This document shows positions 46,401 through 49,400 of a DNA stretch of 64,000 nt, piece after piece. A program made the translations under genes and the position numbers. The notes beneath the pieces were generated by a model. The model was not told the origin of the DNA and ran no database searches. It saw only the letters and a list, made by a program, of their open reading frames with translations. Position 1 is the first letter of the stretch. Each line of letters starts with the position of its first letter. This stretch comes from Cristatella mucedo (Eukaryota > Bryozoa > Phylactolaemata > Cristatellidae), in contig WPIO01000003.1 in NCBI GenBank assembly GCA_009760855.2, positions 5,202,501 through 5,266,500 on the forward strand, in the 5' to 3' direction.

Positions 46401-49400
46401 CCCTAACCATGTTATTCTTATTGTTTATCGAGCATGCTACCACTAACCATTCGATCGTGTTTCCTTTGCAGCAAATGTAAAGTGCCTAGAGAGACATATT
46501 GAGTTCTCTTAGGGAAATTTATTATTATTATTATTATTAGTATCATTATTACTCACTGCTTGCAGGTGGCCCTATGCGAGAAGGTGCTTACAGTAGTGCA
46601 AACATCTGCATCTAGGCTTATTTGTCGTGAGCATCGAAGTTGCCACATTGTACAACTTTTCGCCAAGTCGCACTAGCTCCCAATCAAGCAGCACATCGAC
46701 TTCAAGGTTCTGTTACTTTGTTTTTTTAGGTCCCTTTATTCTCTGGCTCCTGCCTACCTATAAGAACTACTCTCACAACAGGCTAAGCATTGCACCACAT
46801 GCTTTTCTTATTCAAAGTGTTTAGCTATGCCTCACATGAATCTGAAATCCTTCGGAGACCATGCCGCTATTCGTATTCTCCCAAAGCCTGATACTCACGT
46901 GAGACTGTCAACTCCGTATTACCTGACCCGACAACATTTAAAAAAGCTAAAACACCAATTTCTCACAGCATTTAGTGGATTCTTGTAATTCGTCCTTTGT
47001 GTGCTTACACGTGCTGACACTAGGCATGTTGCCACTAACCACATTATGCGTGTAGACAGTTTACATGTTTCAACAAACCTTATGTAGTTGACATCGTGCA
47101 TGTTACTCCTACACATTTGGTCAAGCTTCCTTTTTAGCATAAGTAAAATGCCTAGAAACAATGCTGCAAGGTCACATGCACTGTGCATAGACCAATTGCA
47201 CATATAATCGGCCCATTAGACCACCCACATTCAGAATGTAGGCTAGCTGTTGTCCATAAGCTTTCACTAGTGCGGTTATTGCCATCACCATACTGATGCA
47301 GGATGACTGACTCGTTCGTTTTTTACATGGACCAGGACTAGGCATTGCACACTTAGCATGGGTTTGGAATAACGCATGACTGACAATAGTCTGCCGTTGT
47401 CACAGCCTACCAGTATGGACAAACACGAGTAGACAGAATCCCTACCAGCTGAAGACCGAACATTAGCTTAAAAACCCACGAAAATATATTCCCCTCACCT
47501 TCGTTGAGCTAAAGGTTACTGGTTCACCTGCGACGTGCGATGCAGATGACAGTGAACCGGTTGTGCCATTGCTACTGCTAATGCCAACATCAACAAAACT
47601 GCCATCAGAAACAGACGATGCAGCTGGCACTCGGGCCGAGTGAGTTGCTGGAGCTATGGCCCGAGCCAGTGCCCGGCCTCCAGTGTAGGACAGCACGTGA
47701 CCTCCTGCTGGTGTGTTGGCCATGCTGTCGACAAACGGTTTAATCATCTGGCCAAATGGGCTGCAAAAGAAAGTAGGCAGCTCTTAAACACCAGAAGGCT
47801 CGGATAAATGCAAGGCCTTCAGTTAGGATTGACATCCTTCATAGAGAGATAAATATTATAGACACAGCCAAACACATGCCTGTATCTGTACAAGCATTTC
47901 AATGCAAATCAAAGCACATCGAATGAAAAAAACTAGAGATGAAGCCATCAAAGAGACTGAACTTGTCAACTGTATGACGTTGTTGTAAGTGATAGCAAGT
48001 GCATAGTTTAATCCACTGCCATTGATTTGGATGTTATCCTCCACTCTTACGGTTGCCTAACGGTTACTAGTTTTACCAGCTGCAGTGATTGGATAGGTTT
48101 AGTTAATAGGTTTTCACAAGCCTATCTTTCCTGTGGCAAACTAGATGTAAAATTTGAGTTTAGTGCAACTCTTGCCTCTGGTAGAAAAGGTCATTGGTTT
48201 AAACCCAAGGACGACACCCTATATCAGCAATTCTCAACCTGTGGGTCATGACTCCTTTGGGGGTCGAATGACACTTTCACAGGGGTCGCATAAGACCATC
48301 AGAGAACACACTTCTATTTGTGTGCGCAATAATTTTATGGTTGGGGTCGCCACAACATTAGGAACTGTATTAAAGGGTTTCGGCATTAGGAAGTTTGAGA
48401 ACCACTGCCCTATACCTTTTAATATTTATAGTGCTATAATGATCCTTAAGCTTGTTTAGCACTATATGAACACAATCCCTTTAGGGTGTCCGGATTATAT
48501 GAAAGGAACGAACAGCCATAGACATTCATCATTTTTTGGAGGATATGATGCCTCGTGCAGCTTCTGAAAGAAGCAAACTGAAGCGTGATAAAGCAGTGCC
48601 ATGTCATCACACTTCATATCTTGTATGCACACTGCCAAAGAATTGGGGAAGTCCGACGGCTTTATGAAAAATCAGAGCCAAATGCACCCAATGAACTGCA
48701 AACATTAGCAGGTGAGCTCAAAGTAAATCCAAAGCAAACAAGCAATGTATGACCCCATTAGCAAAAAGCCTGAACACTGTGACTTTCGCCTGAATAAATC
48801 AAGGCAGATCCTCGGTTTACACACTAAATGATGAAGCTGGGCAGCATTCTCCATCAATGGGTACCATGCAAGGACACAAAAGTGCATGCTAAAGATAAAA
48901 GGTGCATAGCTGTCTATACTCGACGCTAGTTATCCTTTGAGGATGAACTGCTGTCTCTGGTTAACATAGGCAGTGCTCCCATGCACTTCTGGCGCCCATG
49001 CTCTCGAATAAGGCTGTGCTTGAGACTCTGTAGAGATTGCTGTACTGCCTTAGAAATAGCAGTTTTCTATTGGATTCGCTCTTAAAAAAAAACTGACGAG
49101 TGCTCTCAATTCGAATCTAGGCATATGGATTTCGCACCTCTGGAGGACTGCATCTCACAGATGTGCCTGATGCTCTGAACTGCACTGTTTTCACAATCAC
49201 GGACAGAGCAGGGCTTCACATGTCAGCGGCACAGCAGAGCAGTGCAGTTGGGAAAATCTTTCCACAGCCTTCTACTTCCCGTCGCTGCAGTCACAGATCG
49301 GACATGCTTCGAAGTTTTGCAAGATTAAATACCAATATTAACCGAGTATCTTGCAGATGCACTTTCTGCTAAACAGCAAGCTTACAAAATTTTGAAACGT

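Follow-up and report, generated by a model that had tools for sequence, protein, structure and literature searches.

Two MITE Copies Within a DESI1-Like Gene

The DNA analyzed here, which we refer to as the window, is a 64-kb stretch (G000:C332:5202501-5266500) of a genome assembly of 572,011,866 bases (572 Mb) in 688 contigs. It contains 2 copies of a SPIN-type hAT MITE, both of which are located between the exons of a DESI1/PPPDE2-like gene on the minus strand. Copy 1 (48225..48407, plus strand) is complete, has a length of 183 bp, starts with CAG and ends with CTG. Its terminal sequences are CAGCAATTCTCAACC...GAGAACCACTG, and the terminal repeats have decayed so that 12/16 positions agree. 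The copy is flanked on the left by the target site duplication CCCTATAT (48217..48224, plus strand) and on the right by CCCTATAC (48408..48415, plus strand), the latter with TA at positions 4-5, and the 2 flanks agree at 7/8 positions. Copy 2 (59433..59617, minus strand) is also complete, with a length of 185 bp, perfect terminal inverted repeats of 18 nt and flanks, TGCTTGAA and CGCTAGAA, that agree at 6/8 positions. The 2 copies are identical at 149/180 positions (83%; E = 1e-46 in a search of the 64 kb). An earlier note on this DNA had placed a hAT MITE with 8-bp duplications at 48225-48407, and the exact borders, the length, the duplications and the second, 83% identical copy in the window all agree with that assignment.

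The surrounding gene was recognized in 2 ways. A six-frame Pfam search of 49001-64000 identified a minus-strand PPPDE peptidase as well as a reverse transcriptase, and 5 DESI1/PPPDE2-like pieces were located by tblastn with a human DESI1 protein as the query. The first recognized exon is located at 60503..60574, the second at about 59804..59895 (with AG and GT at its borders), the third at about 57371..57481 (borders approximate), the fourth at about 51042..51164, and the fifth at 47700..47760, running downward from 47760 with AG at its start and an approximate far end, all on the minus strand. Exon borders were read by eye, and either AG or GT was present at those that were read. Independently of this query, exon 4 matched the solved PPPDE2 and PPPDE1 chains 2wp7 and 3ebq with an E-value of 5e-16. 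The amino acid identities of pieces 1 to 5 to the human DESI1 query were 62%, 53%, 37%, 70%, and 41%, respectively, where the alignments of pieces 2 and 5 extend into the intron. A vertebrate DESI1 protein would show a far higher identity to the human protein than 37% to 70%. Copy 1 is located between recognized exons 4 and 5, and copy 2 between recognized exons 2 and 3. Thus, the intronic position in an invertebrate gene that had been proposed for copy 1 applies to both copies. The 2 insertions look like ordinary intronic decay, and nothing in the sequence of the element suggests a present function.

Two further genes inform on the nature of the host. A long open frame at 2911-4410 on the plus strand, located in a G+C-rich stretch, encodes an octopamine beta-type receptor, for which the closest match in the PDB was the octopamine beta-2 receptor (1e-79, the next match being 9e-57). 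The COX1 gene on contig C688 fits the invertebrate mitochondrial code (code 5), as conserved serines are encoded by AGA/AGG and conserved lysines by AAA. Since the DESI1 pieces are far below the identity expected for a vertebrate and the receptor is of the octopamine type, we infer that the host is an invertebrate and that the MITE copies are located in its own DNA. The description of the genome as protostome-type was thereby sustained in part: the receptor, the divergent DESI1 exons and the mitochondrial code point to an invertebrate, whereas a protostome is only likely. Searches of the host genome with PF00379 and PF14830, which represent arthropod cuticle and molluscan hemocyanin proteins, respectively, yielded 0 matches for either model. 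This speaks against an arthropod and against a hemocyanin-bearing mollusk, but as the control genomes were silent too, the absence is no more than suggestive.

Copy Number, Consensus and Divergence of the Family

A genome-wide search with the 183-base sequence of copy 1 yielded 2,114 candidates, of which 40 were scored, copy 1 among them, and the other 39 scored copies matched copy 1 at 83% to 86% identity. Allowing for up to 3 mismatches, a 31-mer of the left block was found at 991 sites in the genome (508 forward and 483 reverse), including a few longer forms, while the reversed 31-mer gave 0 sites at the same threshold in the same genome. The family members are spread across many contigs, some of which are several megabases long. 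Because the 31-mer with at most 3 substitutions is expected to catch about 60% of the copies at a divergence of 10.3% (indels not counted), the true copy number is probably nearer two thousand.

Two sets of copies were used to infer the consensus. Sample 1 comprised the 39 copies chosen by their similarity to copy 1 plus the 2 copies in the window, 41 in total. The 31-mer had 94 exact matches in the genome, and sample 2 comprised 40 of these, each taken with 3.7 kb of downstream sequence; it did not overlap with sample 1. In sample 2, 35/40 copies had lengths of 177 to 207 bp, while the remaining 5 included 3 copies of about 308 to 320 bp, 1 copy of 2277 bp and 1 copy without a right end. Samples 1 (n = 41) and 2 (n = 35) yielded an identical consensus of 187 bp, with terminal inverted repeats that agree at 15/16 positions. 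The mean divergence from the consensus was 11.1% in sample 2 (10.3% outside CpG, with the 31-mer region left out) and 6.4% in the similarity-chosen sample 1 (5.4% outside CpG). For the copies in the window, the corresponding values were 12.6% (9.3% outside CpG) for copy 1 and 10.3% (6.7% outside CpG) for copy 2. The estimate of copy number and divergence for which the earlier note had called is available, with 991 sites counted and copies that differ by about 10% from the consensus. The elements are short, non-coding, uniform in length, present in many copies and derived by internal deletion, all of which are characteristics of MITEs.

The element was also searched for elsewhere. In a first pattern scan, 3 viral contigs were matched, but these have only a 20-base word in common with the element, the wider match was not significant, and the matches were judged to be due to chance. 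Two further element patterns gave 0 matches in the viral contigs, 2 pattern scans gave 0 matches in a collection of genome contigs, the phage and plasmid records contained no match to the element, and Rfam gave 0 matches at the gathering score.

Target Sites

The flanking duplications agree at 7 or 8 of the 8 positions in 22/41 copies in sample 1 and in 16/35 copies in sample 2. Among the copies with flanks that agree at 6/8 positions or more, the target contained T at position 4 in 27.5/31 and A at position 5 in 30/31 copies in sample 1, and in 17/20 and 18/20 copies, respectively, in sample 2, as compared to a background of 6.3% TA among the flanking dinucleotides. The agreement between the flanks was below 6/8 in 10/41 and 15/35 copies, which were left out of these counts; in some of these copies, the poor agreement may be due to decay or to misplaced ends. 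The 8-bp target duplications and the short terminal inverted repeats starting with CAG are features of hAT elements, and the nnnTAnnn target is a feature of the Buster group. According to excerpts from PMC3499496, the target duplications of TcBuster, which belongs to the same hAT group, are likewise nnnTAnnn with a length of 8 bp, and SPIN has been placed in the Buster family of hAT elements.

Longer Forms and Remnants of a Transposase

Forms that are longer than the MITE were identified in a search with the interior of a 320-bp copy (L074), in which 40 of 94 candidates were scored. A consensus of 321 bp was inferred from 12 copies, namely L074, L083 and 10 of the 12 short copies that were fetched, while the 2 others (L091 and L097) were left out since their ends were incomplete. 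Of the 10 short copies included, 5 have duplications that agree at 7/8 positions. The 321-bp form is identical to the MITE over the 93 left and 81 right bases, and the 187-bp MITE contains a 13-bp filler between these end blocks.

In 3 cases, the copies were still longer, at about 3 kb, and had their ends in common with the MITE. The longest, L110, which was found among 8 regions fetched with 4 kb of upstream sequence, is 3288 bp long, has both ends and is flanked by the duplication GTTTAAGC/GATTAAGC (7/8). A copy of 3110 bp has both ends and a perfect duplication, ATCTAAAT, and a copy of 2956 bp has both ends and no recognizable duplication. These 2 copies are located at L112 and L113/L114, each with a right end of the SPIN type and a left end located in a small extra stretch. 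The 3 long copies have a transposase region in common, with identities of 65% and 45% to that of the 3288-bp copy, and the transposase frames are broken in all 3. A piece of 120 amino acids from L110 had 12 matches in the genome, among them its own place as well as L112 and L113/L114. It is part of the anatomy of SPIN that transposase-bearing copies of about 3 kb occur together with short, internally deleted forms.

The connection of this transposase to hAT comes from a domain match in L113 and from distant relatives. L113 matched the hAT dimerization domain PF05699 (E = 4.3e-4) with a score of 20.5 bits, just under the curated cut-off of 21.4, whereas the scanned pieces of the other 2 long copies gave no match to a hAT domain. 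Distant relatives of the transposase with open frames are present in the host genome, and 1 of the 3 that were scanned showed DUF4371 and PF05699, both below the cut-off. Of 3 pieces of L110 that were compared with the relative L119, 1 aligned with an E-value of 2e-9 for that pair, and the other 2 gave nothing of note. The transposase pieces of L110 were recognized neither by Pfam nor by the PDB, and NCBIfam returned nothing for the 4 pieces tried, 1 of which was from L110. Weak matches of L110 pieces to FerA, Tox-GHH2, DUF3939, ALKBH8_N, and PHO90 were rejected as names for them. The pieces may resemble ZBED5/Buster-type proteins. A copy of 2277 bp with SPIN-type ends (L071, 252-2528) was considered as an autonomous element because of its length and rejected, as its 6 frames contained no recognizable transposase and the only match in its interior was to an integrase zinc finger, below the cut-off.

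Similarity to Mouse DNA

Short words from the element were searched for in the text of published papers, and matched 4 printed stretches that were taken as mouse DNA and none from human in the excerpts that were covered, although a search of this type favors species that are often printed, so that matches to mouse do not show absence elsewhere. One of the stretches is a piece of FDH (Adh5). In the excerpt from PMC8376875, this piece matched the last 80 bases of copy 1 at 64/80 positions without gaps (E = 8e-16 for a search space of 1e7) and copy 2 at 63/80 positions, also without gaps. The best scores obtained from 300 shuffles per copy were 16.5 and 17.0, as compared to 48 and 46 for the real sequences. 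The FDH piece matched the MITE consensus in 67/81 columns and the 321-bp consensus in 78/96 columns (as counted from the alignment and the score), where the similarity continues past the MITE junction. The other 3 stretches are primers for Kcnq1ot1 (PMC6221546), Fem1b (PMC12319709) and Il1b (PMC10570371), which, as printed in the excerpts, matched the consensus at 19/20, 20/23, and 17/20 positions, respectively. Taken together, the matches to mouse cover both the left and the right block of the element.

The 4 mouse stretches carry no element name in these excerpts, and they thus demonstrate homology rather than a name. Both consensus forms (187 and 321 bp) also seem to match the ends of SPIN. 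Homologous copies in a murine rodent are in line with the entry of SPIN into murine rodents, among others, 15 to 46 million years ago, as given in an excerpt from PMC5857283. The SPIN label for this family is strongly supported, as judged from the homology to unlabeled mouse DNA, the Buster target site and the apparent match of the ends. The proposal that the element is SPIN-like is supported by the Buster-type target, by the end and internal blocks in common with mouse DNA, and by the long, transposase-bearing copies, and we consider it the best interpretation.

Origin of the Family

In the scenario that we consider very probable, copy 1 is a dead, non-autonomous SPIN-type (hAT, Buster) MITE, the family of which entered the genome horizontally, was amplified, spread in its 187-bp form and decayed. 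A SPIN-type element would have entered an ancestor of the host invertebrate by horizontal transfer, and would have been amplified by cut-and-paste transposition through the transposase of the approximately 3-kb copies, which are now broken. The internally deleted 187-bp form, which retains 93 bp from the left end and 81 bp from the right, may then have spread to approximately one to two thousand sites, favoring the 8-bp nnnTAnnn targets that are observed in both samples, and 2 of these copies would have landed in introns of a single gene, the DESI1-like one. The copies would since have decayed to the divergence of about 10% that is seen in 35 copies.

The main caution on the reading of horizontal transfer is the conservation of Buster ends. 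According to an excerpt from PMC4298943, the termini of Buster elements are similar to about 106 bp, and similarity of the ends is therefore not unique to SPIN. A different Buster-group hAT family that is native to the host lineage might thus carry SPIN-like ends through conserved binding of the transposase, with no transfer involving vertebrates, and the genome is indeed rich in other hAT elements (of 766 candidates, 150 were scored and 138 of these matched) and contains the distant transposase relatives with open frames. We regard such an origin as improbable, since the similarity to mouse does not stop at the MITE junction but runs on into the interior sequence of the 321-bp form, both the left and the right block match mouse, and single decayed copies are still 80% identical. 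Furthermore, although Buster1 and Buster2 also begin with CAG, their terminal repeats, CAGGGCTTCTTAAAC and CAGGGGTGGCCAACCT, are unlike the CAGCGGTTCTCAACCTGTGGG of the host element (PMC4298943, excerpt).

Ancient vertical inheritance from a bilaterian ancestor, with the likeness kept by selection on the binding of the transposase, has a considerably smaller probability. In its favor, the terminal blocks of hAT elements are functional while the elements are active. However, the non-coding copies are about 80% identical to mouse, which is above the amino acid identity of each DESI1 piece (37% to 70%), and at a divergence of only about 10% from the consensus the burst would be far younger than the split between the animals. 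It is very unlikely that an identity of about 80% between non-coding MITE copies in mouse and an invertebrate stems from their common ancestor, and the ordinary explanation would be an element that moves between lineages. The single-copy identity to mouse therefore exceeds the vertical expectation, which the earlier note had named as the level to be surpassed. Finally, vertebrate contamination or a chimeric assembly as the source of the elements has a negligible probability, for although tetrapods are the best-known hosts of SPIN (PMC5857283, excerpt), both copies are located between exons of one invertebrate gene with 5 pieces only 37% to 70% identical to the human protein, which contradicts it, as do the many contigs of up to several megabases on which the family occurs and the invertebrate mitochondrial code of COX1.

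Comparison With Known SPIN Elements

SPIN is a standard case of horizontal transposon transfer between animal phyla. Like SPIN and SPIN_NA, the family described here is a hAT family with a Buster-type target and terminal sequence in common with mouse DNA, and consists of transposase copies of about 3 kb and short deleted forms. It differs by its invertebrate host and by its own 187-bp deletion form with the 13-bp filler. SPIN-like elements are already known from invertebrates, a snail and Rhodnius, and SPIN has reportedly also been observed in the snail Lymnaea; the host family adds another member.

The snail Biomphalaria glabrata contains about 1,000 copies of a SPIN-like hAT element described by its identity with SPIN, and a search of its assembly detected no DNA element with an intact transposase, according to excerpts from PMC5440852. 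It resembles the present case in the invertebrate host and the copy number, whereas the host genome studied here gave no match to molluscan hemocyanin (control silent) and may belong to another phylum. In Rhodnius prolixus, also an invertebrate host, the presence of SPIN was attributed to transfer from vertebrates (PMC11614815, excerpt). Rhodnius differs in being a blood-feeding insect, while the genome examined here gave no match to arthropod cuticle (control silent). For the painted turtle, a number of 385 SPIN elements is given in an excerpt from PMC4054807.

With somewhat less than even probability, the host belongs to a phylum that is neither arthropod nor mollusk and from which SPIN has not been reported, in which case it would represent a third invertebrate phylum in the SPIN network. 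If so, the long and short forms together with one datable burst would provide a test case for transfer in the absence of a blood-feeding parasite. With about a thousand or more copies and remnants of the transposase, the genome offers sufficient sequence for dating the invasion and for relating it to the SPIN elements in tetrapods, snail and Rhodnius, which bears on the breadth of the SPIN network and on the need for parasites in its spread.

Other Repeats and Features

A second hAT family in the genome gave at least 62 near-equal full-domain matches (73.5 to 78 bits, no stops inside), as for example at G000:C62:104187-104423. It contains several open frames of about 635 to 642 amino acids and looks recently active. 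In the window, a fragment of a hAT C-terminal dimerization domain was identified at 31706-31861 on the plus strand (31.1 bits, over the curated cut-off), within an open frame at 31676-31912, and the SPIN-type transposase pieces tried against this fragment gave no match. One SPIN-type transposase piece matched weakly at 39606-39749 (E = 0.007).

In the mitochondrial piece on contig C688 (L123), a single strand carries, in this order, cox3, atp6, cox1, probably atp8, and nad3; apart from cox1, these genes were recognized by eye. The piece has a G+C content of 44%, and the gene order looks rearranged. Judging by base composition and mitochondrial gene order, the host may be a brachiopod or some other lophotrochozoan. 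Partial matches to COX1 were also found outside this contig, at G000:C166:4375626-4376390 and in 4 other places, and are perhaps nuclear mitochondrial copies.

Non-LTR-type reverse transcriptases are located at 8080-9987 and 53595-54062 in the window, both on the plus strand, and a short repeat that may be the 3' tail of such elements is present in at least 16 copies in the window. The tRNA scan of the window gave 0 hits. Another short repeat, at 36968-37143, 42911-43083, and 52155-52330, is 81% to 83% alike in the 2 pairs listed; it has a tRNA-like B box, as seen by eye, and is perhaps a tRNA-derived SINE. Finally, an array of a 19-bp tandem repeat is located at 41333-41705, with 12 registers among those listed.
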